A stretch of 20,435 nucleotides of DNA from a virus: IMG/VR virus record IMGVR_UViG_3300022725_000337, positions 1-20,435 of that record. One strand, written 5' to 3'. Shown in pieces: positions 726 to 19,486 of the stretch (within the stretch, counting starts at the first letter, position 1; each line of letters starts with the position of its first letter). The position numbers were made by a program, and so were the translations under genes. A model generated the notes under the pieces. The model did not search any database. It worked only from the letters and a program-made list of their open reading frames with translations, and was not told the origin of the DNA.

Positions 726-754
726 GAGACTAGAGACTGGAGACTGGAGACTGG
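726..754 (+). repeat. Family B heptamer array B1
   Basis: Four tandem units of GAGACTA/GAGACTG. It lies in the gene-poor stretch and lacks the conserved 3' tail (GACCACTGGA) seen in the longer copies. Confidence 0.8.
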
Positions 755-1108: not shown

Positions 1109-1130
1109 GGCGGGCATGGCCCGCCCTACA
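1109..1130. repeat. Family D palindrome D3 (variant)
   Basis: GGCGGGC-ATG-GCCCGCC followed by CTACA. Compared with copies D1 and D2, the stem carries a T-to-C change in the left arm and a matching A-to-G change in the right arm, so pairing is kept. Confidence 0.65.
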
Positions 1131-1192: not shown

Positions 1193-1936
1193 ATGATTCG
1201 GATTCGTCAGATGAGTGTCAAGTGTGTGTCACTTTTGGGTTGGTGGGCATTGCCCACCCTACTCGTCGGGTGCATCGTGGGGTGCGCGCAATCGACGGAT
1301 TCCCGGTTCGATGTGCCGCCCGAGCAGCGGGTGGTGACGCCGACCACCGGGGGCGAACAGGCCAGCCAGGGCAGCGACGTGGATGTGTTCGTGACCAACG
1401 CGCCACGAGGCAGCACCATCCCCGGCGCCGGCGGGTTCGACGCGGGGATCGCGTTCGGGTCCATCGGCCAATACCCCGCCGATGTGGCCGGGTTCGGCGG
1501 CGATGGGCAACCCTTCGATCGCGGACAGGCCGGCTATCTGCAAATCACCCACCTGACGGTCAATACAGGACCCACCACGCCCAGCGGGGCGACGGTGACG
1601 GGCAGCGGAACCGGCACGCAAACGGCCAGCGCCACGGGCACGCAAACGCCGACGCAAACCATCACGCCGGAAGTGTCCGCCGCCGCGCCGATCGGACTGG
1701 CGGCGCCCGGGGGGCTGGTGGATCAGAACGCGACGGCGACCGGAAGAGGCACGTCGGACGTGGCGAAAACCAGCACGAACTCGATGACGGTGGCGCAACT
1801 GGCGGATTTGGCTCAGACCAATCCGGGGCTCGCCAAGTCGATTTTTGAGCAGATGTTTGGGACGAATACCGGACCGGATGCTGGCGCAACCGGCTCTGAT
1901 TCGGGTGACGTGGGGGCGATTACGCCGGACGAATAG
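1193..1936 (+). CDS. Putative Thr/Gly/Ala-rich lipoprotein
   Basis: The 247-residue protein starts at ATG 1193, with AGGAGA 6 bases upstream. The N-terminus has basic residues, a hydrophobic core (LLGWWALPTLLV) and two possible lipobox cysteines, C27 (LVGC) and C31 (IVGC), predicting a lipid-anchored envelope protein. The rest is low-complexity and probably disordered: rich in Gly, Thr, Ala and Ser, with runs such as TGSGTGTQTASATGTQTP around residues 140-160. A helical C-terminal segment (MTVAQLADLAQTNPGLAKSI) precedes an acidic end. No family is recognised. The codons of the hydrophobic core include a family D palindrome (1242-1262), and the stop codon TAG is part of the following heptamer array. 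It could belong to the host or be an accessory gene of the phage. Confidence 0.6.
   Translation: MIRIRQMSVKCVSLLGWWALPTLLVGCIVGCAQSTDSRFDVPPEQRVVTPTTGGEQASQGSDVDVFVTNAPRGSTIPGAGGFDAGIAFGSIGQYPADVAGFGGDGQPFDRGQAGYLQITHLTVNTGPTTPSGATVTGSGTGTQTASATGTQTPTQTITPEVSAAAPIGLAAPGGLVDQNATATGRGTSDVAKTSTNSMTVAQLADLAQTNPGLAKSIFEQMFGTNTGPDAGATGSDSGDVGAITPDE
1242..1262. repeat. Family D palindrome D1, inside lipoprotein signal peptide
   Basis: GGTGGGCATTGCCCACC followed by CTAC, nearly identical to D2 at 12805-12826. Here it is translated as part of the hydrophobic core of the signal peptide (residues about 17-24). Confidence 0.75.
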
Positions 1937-1982
1937 AGACTGGAGACTGGAAACTGGAGCCGCTCCCTTACGGTCGCGGTTC
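1936..1982 (+). repeat. Family B array B2 with CCGCTCCC hairpin tail
   Basis: Three heptamers (GAGACTG, GAGACTG, GAAACTG) are followed by GAGCCGCTCCCTTACGGTCG and adjoining bases to 1982. The same tail follows array B4 at 3673-3698. The first G completes the TAG stop of the lipoprotein gene. Confidence 0.8.
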
Positions 1983-1999
1983 GGATCAGAGGTGACGAC

Positions 2000-2215
2000 A
2001 TGGCTCGGGTGGTCAACGCGGAACGCAGCACGATCGTTGGAACGGCTGAGCAAATCCAGCATCTGCTGGCGCGGCTCGCCGGACGCGGGGCCGCGGTGGT
2101 CAACCTCGATGGATCGAACTTCGTGGTGCTGGATAAACCGATCAGCGACAAGCGATTGGCCGACGCGCTGGCGATCACGCCGACGCGATCGGATGGCAAA
2201 CGCAGAAGGCAATAG
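2000..2215 (+). CDS. Small protein of unknown function
   Basis: A 71-residue basic protein. The ATG at 2000 is preceded by an AGAGGTGA Shine-Dalgarno-like sequence that lies just after the B2 repeat. Residues 15-50 look like an alternating helix and strand unit (IQHLLARLAGRGAAVVNLDGSNFVVLDKPIS), and the C-terminus is strongly basic (SDGKRRRQ). I do not recognise a family. It lies at the start of a run of small phage genes with the same orientation and similar spacing, so it is probably a phage accessory gene. The next gene begins 49 bp later, beyond a family C hairpin. Confidence 0.6.
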   Translation: MARVVNAERSTIVGTAEQIQHLLARLAGRGAAVVNLDGSNFVVLDKPISDKRLADALAITPTRSDGKRRRQ

Positions 2216-2226
2216 CGGTGAAGATG

Positions 2227-2258
2227 GTCCCCAGGCTCGCGCCTGGGTCTCGGATTGG
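2227..2258. repeat. Family C hairpin C1
   Basis: CCCCAGGC-TCGC-GCCTGGGT stem-loop followed by CTCGGATTGG. It ends 6 bp before the start codon of the holin-like gene. The outermost stem base differs from consensus. Confidence 0.8.
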
Positions 2259-2264
2259 CAATGC

Positions 2265-2582
2265 ATGAAAGCGTCGATCGATGGCATTTTGAACGCTTTG
2301 GTTTGGTTCGCCTCGCGGCTTAAGAGCCGAAAGGTGCGCACGGCGATCGCGACGGTCATCGCGGCGTTTGTCGCCGACAGTGGATTCGAGGCGGATGAAT
2401 CCTTAATCGTCACCATCCTGGGCGTGGGCGTGGCGGTGATTTTGGGGACGGCGCTGGAAGATTTCGGGATCAAACGGCGATCTAGTGTGCTTGATCGATC
2501 GGCGCAACAGGCGATGCAGAGCACCGCTGGCACAGCGGTGGCACACGGTGGAAACGGGTCTTCGGAGGCGGAACGGAATTGA
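2265..2582 (+). CDS. Holin-like small membrane protein
   Basis: A 105-residue protein. The ATG at 2265 is chosen because it follows the C1 repeat and starts the recognisable protein. The N-terminal 25 residues are amphipathic and basic (LVWFASRLKSRKVRTAIAT). Residues about 28-40 (ATVIAAFVA) and 49-63 (VTILGVGVAVILGTAL) are hydrophobic and could form one or two membrane segments, after which the chain ends in charged residues. Size and position fit a phage holin or a small inner-membrane protein, but no diagnostic motif is present. The last 20 or so residues (QSTAGTAVAHGGNGSSEAERN in part) are translated from a family A repeat, so the ancestral protein probably ended near residue 85. Confidence 0.5.
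   Translation: MKASIDGILNALVWFASRLKSRKVRTAIATVIAAFVADSGFEADESLIVTILGVGVAVILGTALEDFGIKRRSSVLDRSAQQAMQSTAGTAVAHGGNGSSEAERN
2518..2546. repeat. Family A hairpin A1, within holin-like gene
   Basis: Stem CACCGCTG-GCA-CAGCGGTG followed by GCACAC. Relative to the usual CACTGCTG/CAGCAGTG stem, both arms carry a matching T-to-C and A-to-G change, so pairing is kept. It is translated as the C-terminus of the holin-like protein. Confidence 0.8.
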
Positions 2583-2610
2583 GGAGCACTGCCGTCACGG
2601 CAGTGGCACA
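2583..2610. repeat. Family A hairpin A2
   Basis: Stem CACTGCCG-TCA-CGGCAGTG followed by GCACA. It carries a second compensated variation of the stem (CTG to CCG, with CAG to CGG). It begins directly after the TGA of the holin-like gene and ends 3 bp before the GTG start of the next gene. Confidence 0.8.
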
Positions 2611-2613
2611 GGC

Positions 2614-3021
2614 GTGGAAAACTTTTGGTTTGGCAATCCGGAAGGCTTGAGCGAACGGGACGAATCGGTCTATGCGCTGCTGTGCCGGCACTTCGATGAT
2701 CGACCGATCAACGCGCGGGAGATCGCGGAAGCTTGCGGGATCGCGCCGAAGTCGGGCGTGGAAATCCGCAAACGGCGGGTGCGCGAATGCATCGAACGCA
2801 TCCGCGAAAAAGGCGCGCCGATCTGCGCCACGCTGGACGATGGATACTGGCTGGCGGTTGACGGGATGGAGTTTCGCCGATGGTGCGAATGGTCCAAGTC
2901 AGGGGCCAGAGGCAAGTTCGCCCGCGCTCGACGCCTGGCCGGGGCGGTGGCCGATCAGGCCGCGGGACAGGGACGATTGTTTGCGGGAGGGTCGGATGGT
3001 GTGGATGTGTTTCGGCGGTGA
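2614..3021 (+). CDS. Winged-helix DNA-binding protein (phage accessory)
   Basis: A 135-residue protein from GTG 2614. This start is chosen because upstream in-frame codons only translate the A2 repeat. Residues about 14-75 fit a winged helix-turn-helix: a first helix (ESVYALLCRHF), a second and recognition helix (NAREIAEACGIAP, then EIRKRRVRECIERIREKG), and a beta-wing ending in GYWLAV. The pattern 'R-x-x-I-E-x-I-R-E-K-G-A-P-I-x-x-x-x-x-x-GYWL' is typical of small phage and HTH_11-type proteins that read short operators. The C-terminal 55 residues are basic, then Gly-rich. A role as transcription factor or packaging accessory is inferred from fold and position. No operator was identified. Confidence 0.6.
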   Translation: MENFWFGNPEGLSERDESVYALLCRHFDDRPINAREIAEACGIAPKSGVEIRKRRVRECIERIREKGAPICATLDDGYWLAVDGMEFRRWCEWSKSGARGKFARARRLAGAVADQAAGQGRLFAGGSDGVDVFRR

Positions 3022-3024
3022 ATG

Positions 3025-3054
3025 AAGAGCACTGCTGATACAACAGTGGCACAC
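3025..3054. repeat. Family A hairpin A3
   Basis: Stem CACTGCTG-ATA-CAACAGTG with one mismatch, followed by GCACAC. It begins 4 bp after the winged-helix gene and is followed at once by heptamer array B3. Confidence 0.8.
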
Positions 3055-3062
3055 GGAGTTCA

Positions 3063-3129
3063 GAAACTAGAGACTGGAAACTGGAGACTAGAAATTGCAG
3101 ATTCTAGTTTCTTGTTTCTGACCACTGGA
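3063..3129 (+). repeat. Family B array B3 with GACCACTGGA tail
   Basis: Four heptamers (consensus GARACTR) lead into an imperfect palindrome around CTAGAAATTGCAGATTCTAG, then TTTCTGACCACTGGA. The tail is shared with B5 and B7, and in slightly changed form with B4. Confidence 0.8.
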
Positions 3130-3137
3130 GCCTAGAA

Positions 3138-3659
3138 GTGACTTTTGCTGAAGCGGTTGAGGCGATGAAGGCGGGGCACTCGGTGCGGCGGGAATGCTGG
3201 TCCAATCAGCACATTAACGCATGCACCAGCGTCGACTGCATCGTTGACGCCGGCGGCCACAAAGCCTGCCTGGGCATCGCGGATTTTGAAGCGACCGACT
3301 GGCGGCGATGCGATGGGCTGGATCGCGACGCGGCGGACGCGGTGATCGATGTGGCGCATGAGCTTTGGCGGCTTTCGGAAACGATTCAAAACGCGATGGA
3401 TTCACCGGGGGTGCTCAAGACGGTGACGATTGGTCATCTTACGCAGGCGGCGGTGCGGATCATCGTCGCGGAATGCGAAGGGCTTTCGCTGGTGAATCTG
3501 AACTGCATCGCCGTCGGGCGGTTCATGGTGGATGTGAAGTGGGCGGGGGATGGGCCGCGGAAGAGCACTGGCGAACGAGCCGCCAATGGCGCCCAGAGCA
3601 CTGCTCATAGAGCAGTGGCACACGGGGGTGGAGACTGGAGACTAGAGACTGGAGACTAG
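3138..3659 (+). CDS. DUF2829/Tad2-like protein (possible anti-Thoeris)
   Basis: A 173-residue protein from GTG 3138. Residues 1-60 resemble the DUF2829 domain, whose best-studied member Tad2 sequesters cyclic ADP-ribose signals and blocks Thoeris immunity. The family opening 'M-T-F-x-E-A-x-x-A-x-K-x-G-x-x-V-x-R-x-x-W' is matched by MTFAEAVEAMKAGHSVRREC and the following W21, and the closing 'D-x-x-A-x-D-W' by ADFEATDWRRC at 48-58. Resemblance is from memory of the family. The central part is shorter than typical members. Residues 60-140 form an unrecognised helical and beta extension. The final 20 or so residues (STAHRAVAH, then DWRLETGD) are read from repeats A4 and B4, and the TAG stop is formed at a heptamer junction. 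Other DUF2829 proteins have no known function, so activity is an inference. Confidence 0.5.
   Translation: MTFAEAVEAMKAGHSVRRECWSNQHINACTSVDCIVDAGGHKACLGIADFEATDWRRCDGLDRDAADAVIDVAHELWRLSETIQNAMDSPGVLKTVTIGHLTQAAVRIIVAECEGLSLVNLNCIAVGRFMVDVKWAGDGPRKSTGERAANGAQSTAHRAVAHGGGDWRLETGD
3595..3623. repeat. Family A hairpin A4, within DUF2829-like gene
   Basis: Stem CACTGCTC-ATA-GAGCAGTG followed by GCACAC, translated as the C-terminal STAHRAVAH. A decayed partial copy (AAGAGCACTGGCGAACGAGC) lies 35 bp upstream at about 3561-3580. Confidence 0.85.
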
Positions 3660-3715
3660 AGACTAGAGGCTGGAGCCGCTCCCTTACGGTCGCGGTTCTG
3701 TTTCCGACCACTGGA
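3631..3715 (+). repeat. Family B array B4 with both tails
   Basis: Six heptamers, the last GAGGCTG, are followed by the CCGCTCCC hairpin tail (3673-3698) and then TTTCCGACCACTGGA. This copy joins the tail seen in B2 to the tail seen in B3, B5 and B7, indicating one composite family. Confidence 0.85.
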
Positions 3716-3730
3716 GAATGGAGTCAAGGT

Positions 3731-4123
3731 TTGAGCGTTGAACACGAGCGTCTGGTGGCGGAAATCGAAAAACTGCGCGGCGCGGTCAACGCCGAAATGG
3801 CGGGCATGCGCGGATCGATCGACACGCTGGCCGCGAAGGTCGAAGCATCGCAATCGCGGCATCATCAGGAAATCACCTCGCTGTTCGAGCGGTATGGCGA
3901 CGTGGAAAAAAGAGTACGAACCGTCGAACAATCGTACGTGCCGCAGTCCGCGTTCGGACCGGTGGCCAATGACGTGAAGAACCTGCAAGTGGATTCGGTG
4001 CGGCGCGATGATTTCGTGTCGCTGCGCACGGAATTCGGCGAAATGAAAACGCAGGTGACGCGGCTGGTCGCAGCCGCCGGATTCGTGGTGGCGGCGATCC
4101 AATTGGCGGTGAAGTTTTTGTGA
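3731..4123 (+). CDS. Coiled-coil protein with C-terminal membrane segment
   Basis: A 130-residue protein from TTG 3731. No in-frame ATG gives a full-length product, and an AAGG sits just upstream. Residues 5-75 are strongly helical with heptad-like spacing (VAEIEKLRGAVNAEMAGMRG, then KVEASQSRHHQEITSLFE), residues 90-110 continue the helix, and residues 111-130 (LVAAAGFVVAAIQLAVKF) form one membrane span at the extreme C-terminus. This layout is seen in XhlA-type holin partners and other small phage lysis accessory proteins. It lies two genes after the holin-like gene, which supports but does not prove a lysis role. Confidence 0.55.
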   Translation: MSVEHERLVAEIEKLRGAVNAEMAGMRGSIDTLAAKVEASQSRHHQEITSLFERYGDVEKRVRTVEQSYVPQSAFGPVANDVKNLQVDSVRRDDFVSLRTEFGEMKTQVTRLVAAAGFVVAAIQLAVKFL

Positions 4124-4135
4124 TTCGAAGAACTT

Positions 4136-4167
4136 GTCCCCAGGCTTGCGCCCGGGGCTCTGATTGG
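4136..4167. repeat. Family C hairpin C2
   Basis: CCCCAGGC-TTGC-GCCCGGGG with one stem mismatch, followed by CTCTGATTGG. It ends 7 bp before the next start codon, the same placement as C1. Confidence 0.85.
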
Positions 4168-4174
4168 GAATGCG

Positions 4175-4429
4175 ATGGGTGACGCGACGATTGACAAACG
4201 ACTGCGGGAATTGAGCGAACAGCATGAACGCACGCTGGTCGATCTCAAGCGGCATATGACCGAGTTGATCTACGAGCTGATGCAGTGCGACAACGCCAAG
4301 AAGCTCAGGGACATCAGCGAGACGGATATCGAAGACATGGCCGGCAAGGTGCTGGGCATCCGGGGATTCAGGCGGACGCTGCTGCAAATCGATCAATCGA
4401 TTCGGGCGTTGGCGCCGCCGCGGGTTTAA
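4175..4429 (+). CDS. Small helical protein of unknown function
   Basis: An 84-residue protein from ATG 4175. It is highly charged and predicted to be almost all helix (IDKRLRELSEQHERTLVDLK, then HMTELIYELMQCDNAKKL). No membrane segment, cysteine cluster or catalytic motif is visible, and no family is recognised. It lies directly before the terminase genes, where phages often encode small packaging or lysis accessory proteins. No Shine-Dalgarno sequence stands out. The upstream DNA is the C2 hairpin. Confidence 0.55.
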   Translation: MGDATIDKRLRELSEQHERTLVDLKRHMTELIYELMQCDNAKKLRDISETDIEDMAGKVLGIRGFRRTLLQIDQSIRALAPPRV

Positions 4430-4442
4430 GGACACGTTGGCA

Positions 4443-4471
4443 GACGCACTGCTGACACAGCAGTGGCACAC
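4443..4471. repeat. Family A hairpin A5
   Basis: Stem CACTGCTG-ACA-CAGCAGTG followed by GCACAC, immediately followed by array B5. This is the third A-then-B pair in this part of the window. Confidence 0.85.
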
Positions 4472-4477
4472 GGTCTG

Positions 4478-4544
4478 GAGACTGGAAACTGGAGACTAGA
4501 GTGTGGAGACCGGGAATTCTAGTTTCAAGTTTCTGACCACTGGA
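4478..4544 (+). repeat. Family B array B5 with GACCACTGGA tail
   Basis: Four to five heptamers, one degenerate (GAGTGTG), then AATTCTAGTTTCAAGTTTCT and GACCACTGGA. It ends 16 bp before the small-terminase start. Confidence 0.8.
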
Positions 4545-4560
4545 TACTGGATCACGATGA

Positions 4561-5115: not shown

Positions 5116-5123
5116 GTGAATTG

Positions 5124-5153
5124 AAGAGCACTGCTCACAGAGCAGTGGCACAC
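5124..5153. repeat. Family A hairpin A6
   Basis: Stem CACTGCTC-ACA-GAGCAGTG followed by GCACAC. It is followed 22 bp later by family C copy C3, so this junction holds an A-then-C pair. Confidence 0.85.
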
Positions 5154-5175
5154 ACGAACGCGGATTTGGACGATG

Positions 5176-5207
5176 GTCCCCAGGCTTGCGCCTGGGGCTC
5201 TGACTGG
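5176..5207. repeat. Family C hairpin C3
   Basis: CCCCAGGC-TTGC-GCCTGGGG perfect stem followed by CTCTGACTGG, ending 9 bp before the large-terminase start. Confidence 0.85.
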
Positions 5208-5216
5208 CGGGCGGAT

Positions 5217-6590
5217 ATGACCGAACGGACTCGGGCCAAACGAATCTACTGGCTGGACTACCAGAAGCGGCACATCGCCGATACCGCGCGCTATCTGCTG
5301 TACGAGAAATCGCGGCGGGTGGGGTTCGACTGGACCGAAGCGTACAAGCAGTCGATGCTGCGCGGCGGCGGGCAGCGGGATCGCGATCTGTGGTACACGT
5401 CCGCTGACGAATCTGCCGCCGCCGAGTTCATCGAATACTGCAAACAGTTCAACGAACGGGCCAGCCACGTCGCCGATTACTTCACCGAAGACATCGAAGA
5501 CGCCGGCCATCCCAAGGGATCGATCAAGACGTTCTGCGTGCGCTTCGCCAATGGATCGCGGATCAACGCGCTGACCAGCAACCCGCGCCGCATGCGCAGC
5601 AAGGGCGGCGATGTGACTATCTCGGAATTCGCCTTCCACGATGATCCGCAAAAGCTCTACGCCGCCGCCCAGCCGGTGATGATGTGGGGCGATCGGATGA
5701 CCATCGGCTCGACGCACAACGGGGTGGGATCCAAGTTCAATCGCTTCTGCGGCGACGCCCGAGCCTTCGCCGAAGGCCGGACCGAGATCGGCGGGCGGCT
5801 GCTGACGCCGTGGAGCCATCACGTGGTGGACATTCACGCCGCGGTCGCCCAGGGCCTGGTGCGGCTGATCAATCTGGAACGGGGCACGTCGTTCGGCGAT
5901 GATGAATTTCTCAAGCAACTGCGCGCCGGATGCGACACCGAAGATGACTGGCTTCAGGAATACTGCTGCCAACCGAGCACCGAAACCACCGCCTGGCTGC
6001 CGTATGATCTGATCTACACCTGCGAAGATGCTTCGTGCCCGCAACCGGGCGAGCCACTCGCGGCGCTGACCGGAGGGCCGGTGTACTACGGCGTGGACGT
6101 GGGCCGCAAAAAGGATCTGACGGTCGCGTGGTTCTTCGAGCAGGTGGGCGACGTGCTGGTGACGCGGCGCATCCTGGTTCTTGAAAAGACGCCCATCCCC
6201 CAGCAAATCCAAATCATCGCCGGCGCGGCTCGCCAAGCTGGCGCGGCGCGGGGATGCATCGACGCGACGGGCATCGGGCTGGGCGTGGGAGAAGGGTTGC
6301 AGGCGCTGCTCGGTCAGTACGCGGTCGAACTGGTGACGTTCACCAACCCGGTCAAGGAAGCGCTGGCGGTGCCGGTTCGATCGCGGTTTGAGGATCGTTC
6401 GATCCGCATTCCAGACAACGACCAGATTCGGGAAGGATTGCACAAAGTGCGCAAGACGGTGACCGCGACGGGTGCGATCCGCTTCGACGCGGCGCGGGAT
6501 GACAGCGGGCACGCGGATGAGTTCTGGGCGGCGGCGCTGGGGATTCACGCGGCGGGAACCAGTTCCGGCGCAGGAGCGATGGTGATCTGA
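5217..6590 (+). CDS. Terminase large subunit (Mu gp28-like)
   Basis: A 457-residue protein from ATG 5217. Earlier in-frame codons run through the small-terminase gene and repeats, so they are excluded. It is the ATP-driven DNA packaging motor with a headful or cutting nuclease. The ATPase part has a degenerate Walker A at residues 31-40 (KSRRVGFDWT, without the usual GK-S/T) and a Walker B-like strand at 131-140 (GDVTISEFAF) with acidic E137. The C-terminal RNase H-like nuclease shows D294 (YGVDVGRKKDLTVAW), D349 (GCIDATGIGLG) and D434 (SGHADEFWAAALG), the expected three acidic positions. The 'SR-x-x-G-x-x-W' Walker A form is characteristic of Mu gp28-type terminases. The stop overlaps the next ATG by one base (TGATG), implying coupled translation with the portal gene. 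Confidence 0.9.
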   Translation: MTERTRAKRIYWLDYQKRHIADTARYLLYEKSRRVGFDWTEAYKQSMLRGGGQRDRDLWYTSADESAAAEFIEYCKQFNERASHVADYFTEDIEDAGHPKGSIKTFCVRFANGSRINALTSNPRRMRSKGGDVTISEFAFHDDPQKLYAAAQPVMMWGDRMTIGSTHNGVGSKFNRFCGDARAFAEGRTEIGGRLLTPWSHHVVDIHAAVAQGLVRLINLERGTSFGDDEFLKQLRAGCDTEDDWLQEYCCQPSTETTAWLPYDLIYTCEDASCPQPGEPLAALTGGPVYYGVDVGRKKDLTVAWFFEQVGDVLVTRRILVLEKTPIPQQIQIIAGAARQAGAARGCIDATGIGLGVGEGLQALLGQYAVELVTFTNPVKEALAVPVRSRFEDRSIRIPDNDQIREGLHKVRKTVTATGAIRFDAARDDSGHADEFWAAALGIHAAGTSSGAGAMVI

Positions 6591-8974
6591 TGGCGGGAAT
6601 CGCGCATACATGGAAACGCTGGACAGGCGCGATCTCCAATGGGATCAAGAGCGCCATTCACACGCTGCGCGATCCGATCCAGGCGTGGCTGCTGGATGAC
6701 ACGTCCAACGCCGGCAAGCACGTGGGCGACGCCTTCAAGAACGCGGTCTACGTGTACGCGGCGATCAGCGGGGTGGCCGAAGCGTGCGCGTCGGTGATGC
6801 TGCAAATCCAGGATGAAAATAACGACGCGGTGGATCGGCAAGATGATCCTTCAGTCAAGATTCTGGCCAACCCCAACGCGCTGCAGAGCCGCAAGACCTT
6901 CATCGAAGGCACGCTGATCAACCTGCAGCGCGACGGAGCGGTGTTCTGGTATTCACTCGATCCACTGCGCGCGGTGAACCCACTCAAGCGAGCTATCCAT
7001 ATCGCACGCAAACAGAACATGAAACCGATGATCGCCGGCGGGCGACTGGTGGGTTGGAAGTTCACGCCGCGCGGCGCGGTTTCGCCGATCGAACTGCCCA
7101 TCGAGCAGGTCTGCCGGCTGTATTTTTACGATCCGGACGACGAATTGGGCGGACTGTCGCCGTCGCACGCGGCGCAACTGTCGATCGATCAGTTCGTCTT
7201 CGCCAGCCGATACAACGCCAGCGTGTTTCGCAACGGGGCCGATCCAGGCTCCATCTTCGAGATGGAGGGGACGCCGACCGAAGAGCAGCGCGAACAGATC
7301 GCCGACGCGATTCGCAAGTGGCACACCGGAACCGAAAACGCGAAGCGCCCCTTCTTCGGCTGGGGCGGTTTGAAGTGGAAGCCGGGCGTGCAGTCGATGA
7401 AGGACATGGACTGGCTCGAAGGCAAACGTGACACGCGCAACGAACAACTCGCTGCGTACAAGGTGCCCCAGGTGATCGCGGGGATTCTGGATGACGCATC
7501 GCTGAATAATACCCGAGAGCAGGTGCTGCTTTTTTGGGATCATCGCGGCAAGGCGCTCTTGAGCTACGTGGTGGAGTGTTGGAATGGCTTCGTTCAGCGG
7601 GCGATCGATCCGAGAAAACACGTCGAACCGATCTGGACCAGCGTCGAAGCGTTGATGGAACGAGCCATCGAAAAGTTTAAAGGCGCGCTGTCGCTTCAAG
7701 AGTTCGGCATCCCGCTCAACGTGATCATCGAAGCGATGGACATGCCGTTCCCCACGTTCCCGTGGGGCGATGAACCACTGGTGGCCGCTGGCAAGATCCC
7801 CATCACGGTGCTGATGTCCGACGCATCGGGCATGCAGCAGAATGATCGACTGCCCGAAGGGCAGATGCCCGGCGACGAGGGCGACGAACCGGAGGATGGC
7901 GATGGCACGATCGAGGCGGCGTTTCGCGCGGTCGAACGAGCCATCGATCACGACGAAAAAACGGCGCGGGAACGAGCCATCCATCGCAACTGGTGGGCGA
8001 GCTTCGCGGGGCTGCGAGAATTGGCGACGCTGCAATATCGATCGTTTTTCTTGCGGCAACGCGATGACATGATCGCCCGGCTGGAATCGATCGGGCTGCC
8101 CAACGTTGAACGTGGTGGAAAAGAGCACTGCTCACAGAGCAGTGGCACACGGGCTCTGGATCATCGCGGGCGCATCAAAGCCGAAGTGGAACGGTGGCTG
8201 GATCGGGTGGTCTTTGATCTGGAGATTGAGGATGGCCGGTTGCGCGTGCTGTCACAGGAACAGTTCAAAGAGACCGCGATTCTGGGCGGCACGCAGGCGG
8301 GCGCGGAAGCGGCGGTGGCGTCGGAGTTCGTGTTCAACATCGAATCGCCGGCGATGCGGCGCCACCTGCGAAACCAGCGGCTTCGGATTCGCAACGTCAA
8401 CCGAACCACGCAGCGCGCCGTGCGCCGGGTGCTGGTCGATGGGCTGGACGCCGGCGAATCGCTGGGCGAAATGAGCGAACGCATCCGGCGGGTGATGGGC
8501 ACGCGATCGGGATCGCAAGCGTTTACCATCACCCAGACCGAGATCCACGAAGCCATTTCAGCCGGACGAAAAGAGGGATTCAAACAGGCGGGGATCAAGG
8601 GGTGCCGCTGGCTGACCAGCGGGCAGGCGGTGGAGCCGGACGGGCCGGTGCGAATTGCGCACTTCAACGAACAGGCTCGAACGCGCGATCAGGCGGTGTC
8701 GGTGTACGAAAAGTTTCGGCTGGTGGACGTCAAGAGCGGGGTGGTCAGCGAGTGCGATTTCCCTGCACAGGGGGTCTTGCCGCCCGGCCAGAGGATCAAC
8801 TGCCGCTGCATGATTTTGGCGGCGATCGGCAAGGATGGCGGCGCGGTGGATTACGCCAAGGTGCATTTTCGCGACGATCGCGGCGCGTGCCGCCGACTGA
8901 ACCAATGGTTCAGTCAACTGAAATGGGGCGGCGCAGCGAAACAGACGACGAAACTACCAGGGAACCAGAATTGA
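6590..8974 (+). CDS. Portal protein fused to MuF-type head protein
   Basis: A 794-residue protein. Residues about 1-420 are an HK97-type portal, the dodecameric ring through which DNA enters the head. They include the family segment GGLSPSHAAQLSIDQFVF near 187, then NGADPGSIFEM and a later WLEGKRDTRNEQLAAYKVP. An acidic Gly-rich linker (GDEGDEPEDGDG, about 425-437) leads to a MuF-like domain (Phage_Mu_F, about 440-760): LGEMSERIRRVMGTRSGSQA, then QTEIHEAISAGRKEGFKQAG, ending in the typical GQRINCRCMI near 735-742. The two are usually separate neighbouring genes. A family A element lies in frame at 8121-8150 (residues about 510-520, KEHCSQSSGT). No stop or frameshift is present, so the fusion appears intact. 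Translation is coupled to the terminase stop. Confidence 0.85.
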   Translation: MAGIAHTWKRWTGAISNGIKSAIHTLRDPIQAWLLDDTSNAGKHVGDAFKNAVYVYAAISGVAEACASVMLQIQDENNDAVDRQDDPSVKILANPNALQSRKTFIEGTLINLQRDGAVFWYSLDPLRAVNPLKRAIHIARKQNMKPMIAGGRLVGWKFTPRGAVSPIELPIEQVCRLYFYDPDDELGGLSPSHAAQLSIDQFVFASRYNASVFRNGADPGSIFEMEGTPTEEQREQIADAIRKWHTGTENAKRPFFGWGGLKWKPGVQSMKDMDWLEGKRDTRNEQLAAYKVPQVIAGILDDASLNNTREQVLLFWDHRGKALLSYVVECWNGFVQRAIDPRKHVEPIWTSVEALMERAIEKFKGALSLQEFGIPLNVIIEAMDMPFPTFPWGDEPLVAAGKIPITVLMSDASGMQQNDRLPEGQMPGDEGDEPEDGDGTIEAAFRAVERAIDHDEKTARERAIHRNWWASFAGLRELATLQYRSFFLRQRDDMIARLESIGLPNVERGGKEHCSQSSGTRALDHRGRIKAEVERWLDRVVFDLEIEDGRLRVLSQEQFKETAILGGTQAGAEAAVASEFVFNIESPAMRRHLRNQRLRIRNVNRTTQRAVRRVLVDGLDAGESLGEMSERIRRVMGTRSGSQAFTITQTEIHEAISAGRKEGFKQAGIKGCRWLTSGQAVEPDGPVRIAHFNEQARTRDQAVSVYEKFRLVDVKSGVVSECDFPAQGVLPPGQRINCRCMILAAIGKDGGAVDYAKVHFRDDRGACRRLNQWFSQLKWGGAAKQTTKLPGNQN
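8121..8150. repeat. Family A hairpin A7, in frame inside portal-MuF gene
   Basis: Stem CACTGCTC-ACA-GAGCAGTG followed by GCACAC, identical in core to A6 at 5124. At 30 bp it preserves the reading frame and adds about 10 residues between two helical segments of the MuF domain. Confidence 0.9.
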
Positions 8975-8988
8975 TTGGAGCGTGAGCA

Positions 8989-10050: not shown

Positions 10051-10102
10051 TTTTGGTTTGGTCTAGCGCCCGCCGTCATGGGTGCGCGGACCACTTTGAC
10101 AT

Positions 10103-10107
10103 GGAGG
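10103..10107 (+). promoter_or_regulatory. Strong ribosome binding site of capsid gene
   Basis: GGAGG lies 6 bases before the ATG at 10114 and favours it over the in-frame ATG at 10078. The 63-bp gap it lies in is the only gap longer than 30 bp without a family A-D repeat. Confidence 0.7.
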
Positions 10108-10113
10108 TCGAAA

Positions 10114-11523
10114 ATGAATTCGACTAAACAACGCAAGATGGCAGTGGGCCGGCACGTGATCAAAACGACCGGCGGTGGCGGAAGCGGCGCTGGCGCCGTG
10201 ACCAAAAGCGGCGACGGCGGCGGGTCGAGCGACGCCAAGTCGGCGATGCTCAGGTTGCAGGAGACGATCAGCGGTCGATTCAAATCGATCGATGACGCCT
10301 TGGCCGAGCACAAGGCGGCGCTCGACGCGCTGCCCGACGACGCGGCCAAACGGCTCGATGACGTGGGCGAAAAGCTCAAGACCATCGAGGAAGCGATCGA
10401 ACAGCATCTCAAGCAGGGGCCGGGGTTCGGTCAATCCGATCTGACCAAGCACGATCCGGGCTGGGGCGGATTCTGGCCGAATCGGAAAATGGCCGAAGAC
10501 TTCGGCTGCTACCTGCTGGGCATCATCCGACGCAGCGAAGATTTTCTCAAACGCTTCTGCGAGTCGGGGGTGGACTACACCGTGCGCAACAACAGCGGGC
10601 AAGTGGTCAAGACCGCCGACTTCGTCAAAGACTTGCTGATCAGCGATGACGCCGCCGCCGGTTATCTGGCGCCGGACGAATTCGTCGCGCAAATCATCAG
10701 GCACGTCAATCAGTTCGGCGTGGCGCGATCCAAGCTGCGCGTGGTGCCCATGTCGCGCGAACGGCAGAAGTGGCCGAAGTTCATCGGCGGATTCACCGTG
10801 TACTACCCCGACGAAGCGGAAGCGCCGACGGCCAGCGATCTATCGCTGGGGATGGTGACGCTGACCGCCAAAAAGTGGGCGGTGCTGACCTTCGCGTCCA
10901 TCGAACTCGAAGAGGACTCCATCGCGGGTCTAGGCGAAATGATTGCCGGGGAATTCGCCCGGGCGATCGCCCAGGCGGAAGACAACAACACGTTCAACGG
11001 CGACGGGACCAGCACCTACGCCGGCATCGTCGGTGTGCTCAAAAGCCCCAACGTCATCAGCAAGGTCATGGGGGCGGGCGATACGTCGTTCGCAGACGTG
11101 AGCTATGACGACATCGTGGATCTGATGATCGCGCCGCCCGACTGGGTGCGCAAGATGGAAGACGTCGGGTTCTATATGTCGCCGGAAATTTTGGGCACGG
11201 TGATGAAGATCAAGGATGGCCAGGGACGGCCCATCTTCGTGCCCACGCCCAACGAAGGTTTCGTAGGGCGGCTGCTGGGACGACCGGTGTTCGAGGTGAC
11301 GGCGATGCCCGGCACCGCCGCCGACGCGATCTCGACGGCTTTCATGTGCTTCGGATCGCTGAGGGCGTGGGGCATGCTGGGACAGCGGCGGGCGGCGAGC
11401 ATCCAGCGCAGCACCGAAGTCAAATGGCTCGAAGACATGGTGGCGCTGAAGGTGGTGCCGCGACAGGATATCCAAGAGACCGTGGGCGAGGCGATGGCGC
11501 GGCTGGAAACGGCGGCGGCGTAA
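10114..11523 (+). CDS. Major capsid protein, HK97 fold
   Basis: A 469-residue protein from ATG 10114, with GGAGG at 10103-10107. It builds the icosahedral shell. Residues 1-45 are basic and Gly/Ser-rich. Residues about 45-110 are a coiled-coil delta domain that would act as internal scaffold and be removed by the upstream protease (LQETISGRFKSIDDALAEHK). The body from about 150 follows the HK97 pattern: GYLAPDEFVAQIIRHVNQFG, KLRVVPMSRERQKWP, a P-domain spine, then GGFTVYYPDEAEAPTASDLS, and the late LLGRPVFEVTAMP followed by the C-terminal KWLEDMVALKVVPRQD segment. Length is typical for an uncleaved HK97-type precursor. The cleavage site cannot be read with certainty. Confidence 0.9.
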   Translation: MNSTKQRKMAVGRHVIKTTGGGGSGAGAVTKSGDGGGSSDAKSAMLRLQETISGRFKSIDDALAEHKAALDALPDDAAKRLDDVGEKLKTIEEAIEQHLKQGPGFGQSDLTKHDPGWGGFWPNRKMAEDFGCYLLGIIRRSEDFLKRFCESGVDYTVRNNSGQVVKTADFVKDLLISDDAAAGYLAPDEFVAQIIRHVNQFGVARSKLRVVPMSRERQKWPKFIGGFTVYYPDEAEAPTASDLSLGMVTLTAKKWAVLTFASIELEEDSIAGLGEMIAGEFARAIAQAEDNNTFNGDGTSTYAGIVGVLKSPNVISKVMGAGDTSFADVSYDDIVDLMIAPPDWVRKMEDVGFYMSPEILGTVMKIKDGQGRPIFVPTPNEGFVGRLLGRPVFEVTAMPGTAADAISTAFMCFGSLRAWGMLGQRRAASIQRSTEVKWLEDMVALKVVPRQDIQETVGEAMARLETAAA

Positions 11524-11577
11524 CGACACTGCTGACAGAGCACTGCTGACACCACTGCTGACACAGCAGTGGCACAC
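11524..11577. repeat. Compound family A element A8
   Basis: The left arm CACTGCTGACA occurs three times in succession, but the right arm CAGCAGTGGCACAC occurs only once, at the end. This looks like nested insertion or slippage at a family A hairpin. It begins directly after the capsid stop codon. Confidence 0.85.
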
Positions 11578-11597
11578 TTACACTTGGAGAAACAATC

Positions 11598-11987: not shown

Positions 11988-12019
11988 TTGAGCATTGAAC
12001 GGGCGCCGCGGATCAAGAT

Positions 12020-12050
12020 GTCCCCAGGCTTGCGCCTGGGGCTCTGATTC
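12020..12050. repeat. Family C hairpin C4
   Basis: CCCCAGGC-TTGC-GCCTGGGG perfect stem followed by CTCTGATTCG. Unlike C1 to C3 it lies 50 bp before the next start codon. Confidence 0.85.
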
Positions 12051-12100
12051 GCGGCTCGTATCGATCGGAATTCAAACACGCATCGAAGGAGAATCGAACC

Positions 12101-12334
12101 ATGTCTGACAAGCACACTTACACGGCCAGCGAGGAGGGCGGAGCGGTGATCGTCGAAGGCCGCGCGTTGCTCTATCCGGATAACGAATTCAACCGGAAGG
12201 CGGGACGCACGACACAGTGCGAACTGAACGAGACAGAGGCGGCGCGGTTCGGCGATCGGTTGATCAAACTCGGTTCGGCGAAGAGCGCGGAAGCGACCAA
12301 GACGAAACCGGCGGAAGCGACCAAGACGAAGTGA
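12101..12334 (+). CDS. Small head-region protein of unknown function
   Basis: A 77-residue protein from ATG 12101, with GAAGGAGAA 9 bases upstream. Residues 1-60 look like a small alpha/beta unit (GAVIVEGRALLYPDN, then NETEAARFGDRLIKLG). The C-terminus is a near-perfect duplication of AEATKTK, created by a 24-bp tandem repeat (12287-12331). No family is recognised. Position between the capsid and connector genes suggests a head completion or structural accessory, but nothing in the sequence proves it. Confidence 0.55.
   Translation: MSDKHTYTASEEGGAVIVEGRALLYPDNEFNRKAGRTTQCELNETEAARFGDRLIKLGSAKSAEATKTKPAEATKTK
12287..12331 (+). repeat. 24-bp tandem repeat in coding sequence
   Basis: GCGGAAGCGACCAAGACGAA and adjoining bases occur twice with a 24-bp period. 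The repeat is in frame and gives the duplicated Lys-rich C-terminal tail. Confidence 0.8.
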
Positions 12335-12343
12335 TTGGAATCA

Positions 12344-12372
12344 AAGAGCACTGCTCATAGAGCAGTGGCACA
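12344..12372. repeat. Family A hairpin A9
   Basis: Stem CACTGCTC-ATA-GAGCAGTG followed by GCACA. It forms a tandem pair with A10, with a 37-bp period that includes the flanking GGAAT. Confidence 0.85.
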
Positions 12373-12380
12373 TGGAATTG

Positions 12381-12410
12381 AAGAGCACTGCTCATAGAGC
12401 AGTGGCACAC
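12381..12410. repeat. Family A hairpin A10
   Basis: Second member of the tandem pair with A9, same stem and loop. The following AGGAATGGAG provides the ribosome binding region of the next gene. Confidence 0.85.
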
Positions 12411-12421
12411 AGGAATGGAGA

Positions 12422-12706
12422 ATGAACATGGAACATCCATTTGAACCACACGATCAGGATCGGGTCACGGTGGAAGTCGTGCATCCGCAAGGCGTGAAGG
12501 AAGACGGCAAGGAATACAAAAAAGGGATGTGGGTCACACTGTCTCGCGGGCACGCCATGGCGCAGAATCGACCCGGCGGCCAGGTGTATCGTGTCATCAA
12601 GACGGTGCGCTATCACAATGATCCCAACCCGTCGGACAGCTACGAACAGCCGATTGCGCCGCAGCCGCTGGATGTGAGTGGGGATGGGATCAACGCGGGC
12701 GAATAG
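12422..12706 (+). CDS. Small virion-region protein of unknown function
   Basis: A 94-residue protein from ATG 12422. An in-frame ATG at 12428 is also possible. A GGAG sequence directly precedes it. It has a hydrophilic beta-rich middle (RVTVEVVHPQGVKEDGKEYK, then GMWVTLSRGHAMAQN and GQVYRVIKTVRY) resembling a small SH3-like or beta-barrel module, and a Pro/Asp-rich tail. No family is recognised. The last 14 codons plus the following A element are duplicated once downstream (12731-12799), outside the reading frame's stop. Head-tail connector accessory is possible from position. Confidence 0.5.
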   Translation: MNMEHPFEPHDQDRVTVEVVHPQGVKEDGKEYKKGMWVTLSRGHAMAQNRPGGQVYRVIKTVRYHNDPNPSDSYEQPIAPQPLDVSGDGINAGE

Positions 12707-12799
12707 CACTGCTGACACAGCAGTGGCACACAGCCGTTGGATGTGAGTGGGGATGGGATCAACGAGGGCGGTTAGCACTGCTGACACAGCAGTGGCACA
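12662..12799 (+). repeat. 69-bp tandem duplication spanning gene end and A element
   Basis: Copy 1 (12662-12730) holds the last 14 codons plus stop of the preceding gene and hairpin A11. Copy 2 (12731-12799) repeats this with a few substitutions, including a second TAG stop, and holds A12. The period is a multiple of three. Divergence between copies shows that the duplication is not very recent. Confidence 0.9.
12706..12731. repeat. Family A hairpin A11
   Basis: Stem CACTGCTG-ACA-CAGCAGTG followed by GCACAC, starting at the stop codon of the preceding gene. It is part of the 69-bp duplication. Confidence 0.85.
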
Positions 12800-12800
12800 C
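12775..12800. repeat. Family A hairpin A12
   Basis: Identical stem and loop to A11, within the second copy of the 69-bp duplication. It is followed at once by D2. Confidence 0.85.
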
Positions 12801-12804
12801 AAGA

Positions 12805-12826
12805 GGTGGGCAGTGCCCACCCTACG
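12805..12826. repeat. Family D palindrome D2
   Basis: GGTGGGCAGTGCCCACC followed by CTACG, ending 7 bp before the connector start codon. It differs from D1 only in the central base of the loop. Confidence 0.8.
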
Positions 12827-12833
12827 GTGACGA

Positions 12834-14098: not shown

Positions 14099-14100
14099 TC

Positions 14101-14535: not shown

Positions 14536-14542
14536 CGGAGTT

Positions 14543-14570
14543 GTCCCCAGGCTCGCGCCTGGGGCTGTGA
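14543..14570. repeat. Family C hairpin C5
   Basis: CCCCAGGC-TCGC-GCCTGGGG followed by CTGTGAAGGAG. The 3' flank becomes the ribosome binding site (AGGAGA) of the next gene. Confidence 0.85.
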
Positions 14571-14582
14571 AGGAGAATTGTG

Positions 14583-14996: not shown

Positions 14997-14999
14997 TTG

Positions 15000-15035
15000 G
15001 AGACTGGAGACTGGAGACTAGAGACTAGAGACTAG
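15000..15035 (+). repeat. Family B array B6
   Basis: Five heptamers, two GAGACTG then three GAGACTA, with no conserved 3' tail. It occupies the gap where tail assembly chaperone genes would be expected. Confidence 0.85.
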
Positions 15036-15097
15036 ATCGGCGATGAACGAGTTACAGCATATGGAGCACCGCGCGGGCTGAAGCCACGCGGCTCGTC

Positions 15098-16567: not shown

Positions 16568-16998
16568 TGGTCACGTTCGCGGCGCCAACTTTTACGAATC
16601 TGGATGTGGGATTGCCCGGGAGCGCGAGCAACCCGGACGACGCGCAGTCTACGGTGCTGGTGCAACCGGGGGCGGTGACGGCGCGGGCGATTGGGTTCTC
16701 GTTTCCCGGACACATCGGTGAATATCAGCACACGCTGGGCGCGGGGACGCAGCAGATCAACTGGAACCTGGTTGTGAGGGCGCGGACGCTGGCGATTCTG
16801 GCGGCGATCGATGGCTCGATTCGCACCGCACAGTTCGCCGGCGAAGGCACGATGGTGGACGCGGACGGCGTGAGCTATGCGCGGACCGTGCTGGTCGGGC
16901 ATCAAAAAGGGACAAGGGCCATCATTCGCGATGCGGAACGGTTCGGTTGGGTGCTGCGCCAGGATGTTTTGACGTTTCGGGTGCTGGCGCCGAGCTAG
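16567..16998 (+). CDS. Minor tail protein, position of distal tail protein
   Basis: A 143-residue protein whose ATG overlaps the tape measure stop by one base (TTGATGG). It is beta-rich with PTFTNLDVGLPGSASN, then TVLVQPGAVTARAIGFSFPG and INWNLVVRARTLAILAAIDG. Its location immediately after the tape measure is that of the distal tail (Dit) protein in siphoviruses, but it is smaller than typical Dit proteins (about 250 residues), so it may be only the N-terminal ring domain or another minor tail protein. The TAG stop is formed by the first unit of array B7. Confidence 0.5.
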   Translation: MVTFAAPTFTNLDVGLPGSASNPDDAQSTVLVQPGAVTARAIGFSFPGHIGEYQHTLGAGTQQINWNLVVRARTLAILAAIDGSIRTAQFAGEGTMVDADGVSYARTVLVGHQKGTRAIIRDAERFGWVLRQDVLTFRVLAPS

Positions 16999-17065
16999 AG
17001 ACTGGAGACTAGAGACTGGAAACTGGAGACTGGAAACTTCTAGTTTCTAGTTTCTGACCACTGGA
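16998..17065 (+). repeat. Family B array B7 with GACCACTGGA tail
   Basis: Five or more heptamers, then a GAAAC/GTTTC inverted repeat with TTCTAGTTTCTAGTTTCT, then GACCACTGGA. It begins at the stop codon of the minor tail gene. Confidence 0.85.
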
Positions 17066-17076
17066 TTCTTGAACTT

Positions 17077-19458
17077 ATGCCTCCTGCGAAAGCGGACAAT
17101 CAAGTGCGGCCTTTTCGGGTTTGGCGCGAGGCTACACCCGGCAGCGGCGTGTTGGTGCTGGATGATCGCAGCGTGCCGATCGACGCGCATCAAGGGGCCA
17201 ACGGAAAGTCGCGAGCGCGGTTTCGGCTGCTCACCCAGGAAACCAAGGCCGCGCAGGGATCGCCGCCGTTTTCGGAACTGTCCGAAGCGGACATCGATCG
17301 AATGTATGGTCCGATGGTGCGCATGGCCATCGCGGCGGTGACGCCCACCGCGGGTCTGGTCAATGTGATCGCACACGGGTACGTGAGCAAACGCAACCTG
17401 AACATCGGTCGAAGCGGCGATCGATCGTTCTATAACGACACCATGCAGATCGAACCGGCCATCGGGCGAATGGCGGTGACCATGCATCGACACGTGTGGG
17501 GCCGGTACATGCTCAGCCGAGCGGCGACCGACGATCTGGGATATGACGACGGCGCTTTCGGCGATGCGAACGTGATTACCGATGGAGGCGGGGCCGGGGG
17601 CGTGGCCGACGCCACGTTCGCAAGCGCACTGACCCACGTCGCGCTGCCGTGCATCTTCAACCCGATCGGAAAAGATGAGTCGGGCAATCCGGTGATGATG
17701 CCCAACCGATCGCGCCGACCGATCTTTGTCACCGGTTCGGATGTGCCTACGGTGGACGGCGGAATCCACGTGTTCACCTTCGAGGGTGATCCGAACGCGA
17801 GGCCGTGGACCTATCTGCAAGCTCTGCGCTACCTGGTCGCGCTGCATGGGTTCGACGCGGTGTCGTTCGGCCTGTCGTTCGACGAGCTTTGGGGCGCGAC
17901 GCGAAACGGATCGGCGCCGGACTTCTGGCACTTTCTGGATGAGGATGATGTGGTCATCCCATCCGATCGAGCGCCCGAAGGCTGGCAGGAAACCATGACC
18001 CGCAGAGCCAATGCGCTGAACTGCGAAACGCTGAGTCTTCTGGAAGCGATCGAGGCGATCAGCGACGCGACCGGGATGCGCATGAGCGAACGGCACGAAG
18101 GCAGCGGCAACGCGACCAGCATCAGCGTCAGCACGCAAATGGAATTCTGGACCGCGGGCGATCGCACGCAGCGCACGCTGGGGTTGCAGCGGTCCGGCGA
18201 TCCGATGGCGGTCAGTGGGCACCATGACGCCATCGGAAAACTGCACAGCCTCAGCGACATCTTCTTGCACAACCAATTGGCCAGCCTGACTGCGCAGCGC
18301 GACACGGGCAACATGGCGTCGCACGTGGAAGTGCTGGGCGGACGAAAGCTTCTGCAAGTCACCGTGGAACTGCAACCGTTTTGGCCGCCGGATGCGGATT
18401 GGGATGATGTTGATAGCGGATCGATCGGAACGAAGTCAGACGCTGCGTTCGCCGGCGATGCGCCGTTCGAGAGCATTGAAGGGAGTGCGTTTTACAATCG
18501 GTTTCACACCAAGGGGAAAGACTTCGGTCTCGGCGGCAATCGGATGGTCGGGCGGCTTTGGGGCGCGGACTTCGGCGGCGAACTCGATCCCTCGATTATG
18601 AATCGATCGACCGGTCCGTTCACCAATTACAACCAACCGGCGCGGCTCAGCGATCTGACCAATTTGGTGATTTCGCTCGATAAGCAAGTTCGGCGCCGAC
18701 GGCAAATGCTGAAGACGATCGTGATGGATGACACCGGGCGGCGCGAGGGGGTGCTTGTGGAATTGTCGCCCGACGATGGGATGACCTGGCTGCGAATGCC
18801 GATCACTTCCAAGATCGGAATTCTCACGCGACAGTTCGCCATCTATTTTGAAAATCAGGACGTGCTGACCATCGGGCAGCATCTGATCGGCGACGATATG
18901 CGGTCGATCATCTTTCCGGGTTCGTCGGGCCTGGGAAAAGAGAATTTCTATCACGCTTACATACTGAATCAACTGCGGGTGAGAGTGACCTGCGTGATCG
19001 ATCTGGACGGGCGAATCGATGAGATCGCGTTCGACTCGAACAGCGCGGTGCGCGATCATCGGATCACGCGGCTGATCAGCGCCAAAGAATCGTTTCGGGA
19101 TATCGATGCGCAGTCGCACGGGGACAACACGCTGCTCGGGCTGGGCACGGATGTGCTGGATGGGCCGCGAGCCAGGCGGTTCGCGCTTGCGATGCTGCGC
19201 AGGCATCAGGGGGCGGCGCTGCGCGGCGATCCTCTGATTCCGTGGGTGGCGCTGGATGATGAGTTCGCGCTGGGGGATTCCGTGCTGGGGATCCGACGGA
19301 CCAAGTCGGATGTTGTGGATATCTCGTTCGGCGGCAACGCGGCGCGGGATGGGGATTTTCCGGTGATCGTTCAGAAGGTGTTCAAGCTGGACGGCGAGCA
19401 ATCGACGCAGTTGGTGCTCACCGATGGCGAATTGCGACGCTCTAACGGGAAGACGTAA
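17077..19458 (+). CDS. Large tail hub-like protein
   Basis: A 793-residue protein from ATG 17077. No clear Shine-Dalgarno precedes it, and B7 lies just upstream. Its size and location after the tape measure and a Dit-sized gene fit a tail hub or tip protein (gp27-like or tail-associated). The N-terminal 100 residues are beta-rich with RVWREATPGSGVLVLDDR, then VNVIAHGYVSKRNLNIG. A segment around 245-275 reads ARPWTYLQALRYLVALHGFD, a helix common in planctomycete-type tail hub proteins as I recall them. A later region includes VLVELSPDDGMTWLRMP and PWVALDDEFALGDSVLGIRR near the C-terminus, compatible with repeated beta domains. No lysozyme or peptidase motif was found. The stop TAA overlaps the start of hairpin A13. 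Confidence 0.5.
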   Translation: MPPAKADNQVRPFRVWREATPGSGVLVLDDRSVPIDAHQGANGKSRARFRLLTQETKAAQGSPPFSELSEADIDRMYGPMVRMAIAAVTPTAGLVNVIAHGYVSKRNLNIGRSGDRSFYNDTMQIEPAIGRMAVTMHRHVWGRYMLSRAATDDLGYDDGAFGDANVITDGGGAGGVADATFASALTHVALPCIFNPIGKDESGNPVMMPNRSRRPIFVTGSDVPTVDGGIHVFTFEGDPNARPWTYLQALRYLVALHGFDAVSFGLSFDELWGATRNGSAPDFWHFLDEDDVVIPSDRAPEGWQETMTRRANALNCETLSLLEAIEAISDATGMRMSERHEGSGNATSISVSTQMEFWTAGDRTQRTLGLQRSGDPMAVSGHHDAIGKLHSLSDIFLHNQLASLTAQRDTGNMASHVEVLGGRKLLQVTVELQPFWPPDADWDDVDSGSIGTKSDAAFAGDAPFESIEGSAFYNRFHTKGKDFGLGGNRMVGRLWGADFGGELDPSIMNRSTGPFTNYNQPARLSDLTNLVISLDKQVRRRRQMLKTIVMDDTGRREGVLVELSPDDGMTWLRMPITSKIGILTRQFAIYFENQDVLTIGQHLIGDDMRSIIFPGSSGLGKENFYHAYILNQLRVRVTCVIDLDGRIDEIAFDSNSAVRDHRITRLISAKESFRDIDAQSHGDNTLLGLGTDVLDGPRARRFALAMLRRHQGAALRGDPLIPWVALDDEFALGDSVLGIRRTKSDVVDISFGGNAARDGDFPVIVQKVFKLDGEQSTQLVLTDGELRRSNGKT

Positions 19459-19486
19459 GAGCACTGCTCATAGAGCAGTGGCACAC
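19457..19486. repeat. Family A hairpin A13
   Basis: Stem CACTGCTC-ATA-GAGCAGTG followed by GCACAC. Its first two bases (AA) are part of the TAA stop of the hub gene. Confidence 0.85.

Follow-up and report, generated by a model that had tools for sequence, protein, structure and literature searches.

The virion gene operon of an uncultured virus raises the question of where the short palindromic repeats in nearly every gap between its genes came from, and why all of them point the same way. The stretch analysed here, referred to as the window, is IMG/VR record IMGVR_UViG_3300022725_000337, 20,435 bases long and without host sequence. We describe six repeat families in it (A, B, C, D, K and E), trace several of them to genomes of the Phycisphaerae, and compare their positions with those in related phages. 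Taken together, the evidence makes it fairly probable that REP-type palindromes (repetitive extragenic palindromes; families A, C, K and E) and heptamer arrays (family B with its arm, D) of a Phycisphaerae kind colonised, and still colonise, the late-operon gaps of what is probably a Mu-like phage.

Family A (consensus GAGCACTGCTnnnnnAGCAGTGGCACAC) is present in 13 copies with at most three mismatches, and family C, the GTCCCC family (GTCCCCAGGCTYGCGCCTGGGGCTC), in five; the chance expectation was 0.00 both for A (100 dinucleotide shuffles) and for C (shuffles). Family B consists of arrays of the heptamer GAGACTR (n = 7), and family D (TTCTAGTTTC arm / TTCTAGTTTCT arm; n = 3) is inverted relative to them. 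An earlier reading made from the sequence alone had given these same four counts, all of which were reproduced, and neither A nor C is expected even once by chance. Two families were not in that sequence-only reading: K (GAGCCGCTCCCTTACGGTCGCGGTTC; two copies) and E (GGTGGGCATTGCCCACCCTAC-type, a GTAG-type palindrome; three copies). Also absent from it was the orientation of the elements: all 33, whatever their family, lie on the + strand (Table 1). Folding z-scores computed for DNA are between -2.7 and -4.3 for A, C and E, and weaker (-0.9) for K. CTAC (GTAG) is the end of family E and of a related GGTCCGC family; A has the outward end GTGTGCC, and C, on the reverse strand, ends in GAGC.

The elements are concentrated between genes. 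From position 1937 on there are 17 gaps longer than 30 bp, 16 of them occupied, and 26 of the 33 element midpoints fall inside these gaps, against 2.2 expected and a maximum of 10 in 20,000 simulations. Elements make up 48% of the gap bases, and the gaps themselves less than 7% of the window. The occupancy first noted, 17 of 18 gaps, holds when the upstream gap 481-1196 is included, and the gap at 10051-10113 is indeed the only one without a member of A to D, having instead an imperfect hairpin of its own (GCGCCC...GGGTGCGC, judged by eye). Within the occupied gaps the first element begins no more than 15 bp past the upstream stop codon in 14 of 16 cases, and B arrays frequently overlap the stop codon; distances from elements to the next start codon range from 2 to 102 bp. 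Three copies of A lie within open reading frames (ORFs), at 2522, 3599 and 8126. The last is an in-frame insert in the variable linker of the portal-MuF protein and is missing there from the aligned portals of two relatives described below, L213 and G017. The long gap at 481-1196 is non-coding; it contains palindromes of several sorts and is conserved in part in L213.

Palindromes of families A, C and K are dispersed in Phycisphaerae genomes. A pattern scan of genomes for A recovered at least 120 stretches, nearly all from metagenome-assembled genomes (MAGs) of Phycisphaerae/Planctomycetota; for the few matches from other phyla, misbinning is a possible cause. The notion that A is a phage-borne repeat absent from hosts was dropped once A had been found in Phycisphaerae genomes. 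Most host copies of A are extragenic, and 171 of 224 have a neighbour within 150 bp. Their pairs are 64 times -+ (tail-out), never +- and 28 times tandem, an arrangement that agrees with the geometry of REP doublets (REPINs; PMC3116915). Family K has matches in 106 of 397 Phycisphaerae genomes, with at least 54 copies in one of them (G025) and -+ pairs seen; as an exact 24-mer it was found in none of 392 Planctomycetota genomes, and looser searches found it widely. Family C is represented in hosts by only 13 and 6 copies, with compensatory stem changes in genome G012, and the heptamer arrays have weak matches in a few host genomes. A related GTAG-type palindrome occurs 75 times in MAG G017 and 47 times in G010, mostly as -+ pairs; both MAGs have a RAYT gene flanked by it. 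Orthologous RAYT genes in Phycisphaerae MAGs (L239:1336-1911 and L240:1456-2031), flanked by GTAG-type palindromes GGTCCGCACAGCGGACCCTAC, form a clear RAYT/REPIN system. Copy density is not uniform across the sampled hosts. What sets the window apart is density: the densest sampled MAG has 125 copies of A in 5.2 Mb, or one per 42 kb; the window, at one per 1.6 kb, exceeds this at least 25-fold, with respect to sampled genomes that do not include the true host.

The genes of the window encode TerL, a portal-MuF protein, a protease, the major capsid protein (MCP), connector proteins and a minor tail protein. TerL relatives among named phages include Pseudomonas phage B3 (38%). The closest TerL relatives that also carry A are 61-63% identical (records 3300048073 and 3300048561, with A at the same positions) and come from a phage with a MuA transposase, and because of this relationship the best guess for the carrier is a Mu-like transposable phage of Phycisphaerae; the 20 kb window stops short of any early region, and MuA is seen in the relative. 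A MuA-type transposase gene lies at L217:6828-8993, on the contig of a phage whose attributed hosts are Phycisphaerae. A search of IMG/VR with the MCP returned no relative, and none was found among phage records for the protein encoded at 17077-19458.

The gap contents were compared with those of a mosaic relative, L213 (IMGVR 3300023199_000265). All six families occur in L213, every copy on the + strand and co-oriented with its genes. Identity to the window (genes are named by their start position) reaches 90% for g11598, 87% for g17077 and 94% for g19514, and is 49% for the MCP and 40% for the portal; where the two are nearly identical, dS ranges from 0.10 to 0.30 and dN/dS, with the MCP left out, from 0.17 to 0.40. 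The junctions nevertheless differ between window and L213: A is present versus absent at g2614/g3138 and g3138/g3731, and the fillers are A versus B and D at g2265/g2614, A versus C at MCP/g11598, A versus B and E at g17077/g19514, and B and D versus B, K and C at g16567/g17077. Only the gaps at 1937-1999 and 11988-12100 hold the same filler in both; at the latter a further phage, L249, also has C, though the genes there are just 44-50% identical. Different fillers thus stand between genes that are 87-94% identical, and therefore the repeats turn over fast, whereas purifying selection continues to act on the virion genes. That relatives lacking repeats at the same junctions would speak for recent colonisation had been proposed at the outset, and at these junctions the repeats are absent or changed in L213 and G017. 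With A, C and K dispersed in Phycisphaerae genomes, the original suggestion of host mobile palindromes colonising a phage is supported.

A second suggestion was that the repeats are phage-borne linkers through which gene modules are exchanged by homologous recombination. The window and L213 are strongly mosaic, as this would predict: g11598 and g19514 are nearly identical, the portals are far apart, and TerL has no detectable similarity. The seven identity breakpoints between them lie a median of 55 bp from an element, however, which is no nearer than points drawn at random close to gene ends (P 0.72), and the same junction often holds different families in window and L213; at several junctions the genes on both sides are retained and the filler is not. 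The linker idea fails because the G017 prophage, in a MAG with 70 copies of A, has no A to D, and because L213 carries other repeats at the same junctions; we regard it as highly improbable. The TerL genes of L213 (4117-5586) and the window (5217-6590) give no tblastn similarity next to upstream genes that are 87-94% identical, which, judged from the sequences, is a whole-gene replacement.

The G017 prophage is fully syntenic with the window. Its gaps at shared junctions total 346 bp, versus 928 bp in the window, and contain one single GTAG-type palindrome, in sense orientation, in the g4175/terS gap. A palindrome in its MCP/g12101 gap was sought as a genome repeat and found in a single copy only. 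The operon (L296, G017:C32, about 75-93 kb) adjoins sdh genes and may represent part of a prophage or a particle-gene cluster; no early region was recognised in the stretch. That at least one relative is a prophage beside sdh genes, and that the repeats are of host type, would fit an origin of the window in a decaying prophage passively gathering repeats in a repeat-rich chromosome. This account is nonetheless very unlikely: dN/dS between window and L213 and their intact ORFs speak against decay, the density of A far exceeds that of the sampled hosts, and a uniform orientation is unexpected for random, host-like insertion. Among 80 more distant TerL relatives (1.26 Mb), an imperfect fuzzy scan found none of the families.

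The uniform orientation extends beyond the window. Counted relative to the neighbouring genes over up to eight phage records, whose copies are not fully independent of one another, sense and antisense elements number 26:1 for A (one mixed), 20:0 for B, 9:0 for C, 8:0 for K and 6:1 for E. In hosts, by comparison, single copies of A between co-directional genes are 8 sense and 13 antisense, with no sense bias. Selection against inversions alone was considered as the cause and judged insufficient, because it would fix orientation randomly for each family and phage, and the sense orientation is shared by nearly every family in every phage.

Sense hairpins might instead be kept for a role in late-operon RNA, through 3'-end protection, intercistronic processing or stopping antisense transcription. 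The strong sense bias and the position of most first elements just behind a stop codon would fit such a role. A weak lead is that the antisense reading of A gives a hairpin of 8 bp with CUCUU behind it, and that on the minus strand three A copies score as terminator-like; the A-rich 5' flank of A is also more pronounced in phages (3.1 of 8 bases) than in hosts (2.1 of 8). No copy of A or C scored as an intrinsic terminator on the coding strand, though, terminator-like sites overall show no excess (14 versus 14.1 in shuffles), and an Rfam search of the elements found no RNA family. The syntenic G017 operon works without A to D, families are swapped at the same junction, and the host single copies have no bias. 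We consider an RNA role unlikely.

A single orientation could also arise without selection if insertion were strand-specific, with a single-stranded target exposed during phage replication. IS200/IS605-type enzymes target the lagging-strand template (PMC6006769). All six A copies of phage 3300048561 are on one strand, among them the sole copy of A that is antisense to its neighbouring genes, as expected if the strand rather than the gene direction mattered; this, however, is a single exception. Moreover, insertion of a phage in both orientations should average out the direction of the host fork, except where phage replication itself is of fixed polarity. Strand-specific insertion is a possibility that we hold to be doubtful, and a slightly better one than an RNA role.

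Some of the A copies have multiplied within the phage. Two pairs, 12349/12386 (37-bp unit) and 12707/12776 (69-bp unit), are tandem duplications, and therefore the window has about 11 independent A sites. The 37-bp tandem spans 12336-12409, and the 69-bp duplication, at 12662-12801, comprises the 3' end of gene 12428-12706 and the A element. Together with the slipped partial copies at 11527-11577, these duplications show local amplification. Beyond them, the 12 bases 5' of A agree at 5.2-5.4 of 12 positions in the window, versus 3.4-3.7 in hosts and a maximum of 4.0 for random gap 12-mers, and an extended flank, GAATTGAAGAG, recurs at several dispersed window sites. This shared flank suggests later copying inside this phage lineage. 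Scanned against viral sequences, the extended flank matched twice, each time over 17 bases. It is conceivable, but in our judgement quite improbable, that host REP palindromes went further and became a phage-adapted subfamily of A, marked by GAATTGAAGAG, that amplifies in the lineage as sense-only singletons, its orientation kept by shielding the late operon from antisense transcription or by processing its RNA.

Colonisation by host-type palindromes, which we prefer, could proceed as follows. Host REPINs would enter phage DNA by single-strand transposition of the RAYT/TnpA-REP type while the phage sits in the chromosome, and A would then be copied further within the phage lineage. Gaps right after stop codons would tolerate inserts and so fill up. 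One orientation would persist if the opposite one were harmful to a long co-transcribed operon, or if insertion preferred one strand, and the elements need not benefit the phage. Several observations weigh against this explanation. The phage copies are singletons, whereas the proposed mobile unit of REPINs is a doublet (PMC3116915), and no clean target site or insertion intermediate was seen among them. No RAYT could be assigned to A, which is nearby at only 2 of 30 Y1_Tnp loci, about the estimated density-based expectation. The flank GAATTGAAGAG is in no sampled host A locus, and 397 genomes gave one near match, with 2 mismatches. Finally, the density contrast could shrink, the true host being outside the data.

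The elements are ordinary in kind, being REP-type, and unusual in place, density and orientation. Like REP/REPIN sequences mobilised with RAYTs (PMC3116915, PMC3733652, PMC2817692), they are palindromes of 20-30 nt, tagged with GTAG in the case of E, that in hosts have high copy numbers and, for A and K, form inverted doublets; they share sites just 3' of ORFs, occasional in-gene copies and the supply of stop codons. Unlike them, the phage copies are single, almost all in one orientation and many-fold denser, and family A has neither a GTAG nor a CGTC tag (it ends in GTGTGCC) and no linked RAYT. The start-associated sequences (SAS) and extended SAS (ESAS) of Cluster K mycobacteriophages (PMC3203893), to which the elements had first been likened, are also intergenic, nearly uniform in orientation and partly inverted repeats. 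The analogy is poor: SAS are placed at start codons, with conservation at orthologous genes, whereas the elements described here lie near the upstream stop, vary among relatives at orthologous junctions and are present in host genomes. Rickettsia palindromic elements (RPE, cited in PMC3733652) resemble the A copy in the portal linker in being in-frame palindromes in protein genes, but they belong to a bacterial genome and are mostly intragenic, whereas here phage gaps are the main site. In Pseudomonas aeruginosa, transposable phages insert near REPs (PMC5977238), which likewise ties Mu-like phages to REPs; there the phages lie beside host REPs, and here the REPs are inside the phage.

The presence of REP elements is taken as a sign of old, stable chromosome, and in Pseudomonas, prophages and other mobile elements lie in REP deserts (PMC3390384). 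The present finding matters because that genome comparison placed mobile elements in REP-free stretches, and a phage operon with one A per 1.6 kb breaks the rule. New relative to the published work compared are the density of A, at least 25-fold that of the densest MAG sampled, the singletons and the sense orientation; our literature search met no report of a REP-filled phage operon, which is not proof of absence. Host REPs and phages evidently exchange within a short evolutionary time, and sense versus antisense copies and filled versus empty junctions offer a countable system for asking whether REP orientation comes from insertion or selection.

Table 1. Repeat elements in the window, by family, with the corresponding situation in relatives
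Family	Coordinates	Strand	Context	Relatives
A	2520..2546	+	degenerate copy with paired stem change, within ORF 2265-2582 (3' part)	remnant alignable in L213
A	2585..2611	+	degenerate, gap 2583-2613	L213: heptamer array and D arm instead
A	3028..3054	+	gap 3022-3137	missing from L213 at same junction
A	3597..3623	+	3' end of ORF 3138-3659	missing from L213
A	4445..4471	+	gap 4430-4560	
A	5127..5153	+	gap 5116-5216	
A	8124..8150	+	in-frame insert KEHCSQSSGTR, variable linker of portal-MuF gene	
A	11527..11577	+	A plus two slipped partial copies, gap 11524-11597	L213: GTCCCC elements instead
A	12347..12373	+	first of 37-bp tandem pair	
A	12384..12410	+	second of 37-bp tandem pair	
A	12705..12731	+	in 69-bp tandem duplication including gene 3' end	
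A	12774..12800	+	second unit of 69-bp duplication	
A	19460..19486	+	gap 19459-19513	L213: heptamer array and E instead
C	2227..2251	+	GTCCCCAGGCTYGCGCCTGGGGCTC	
C	4136..4160	+		
C	5176..5200	+		
C	12020..12044	+		same junction in L213 and L249
C	14543..14567	+		
B	720..755	+	heptamer array GAGACTR	
B	1936..1959	+	abutting stop codon	common to L213
B	3062..3094	+		
B	3629..3675	+	across stop codon of ORF 3138-3659	
B	4475..4510	+		
B	15000..15036	+		
B	16995..17038	+	overlapping stop codon	
D	3103..3129	+	TTCTAGTTTC arm, inverted to heptamer array	
D	4518..4544	+		
D	17039..17065	+		
K	1957..1982	+	GAGCCGCTCCCTTACGGTCGCGGTTC	
K	3673..3698	+		
E	1109..1129	+	GTAG-type palindrome (variant)	
E	1242..1262	+		
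E	12805..12825	+		

Related phages have further repeats of these kinds. In L213, at 10106-10262 and 12042-12198, another palindrome (GGCGGCATGTCCTCTGACT..CGGACAC) lies within the loop of C elements, giving nested palindromes. The gaps of L214, L215 and L217 contain a different heptamer array (CAGGCTGCAGGCTTTAGGCTGC-like), in positions like those of B, and L214 has one such array on the opposite strand.

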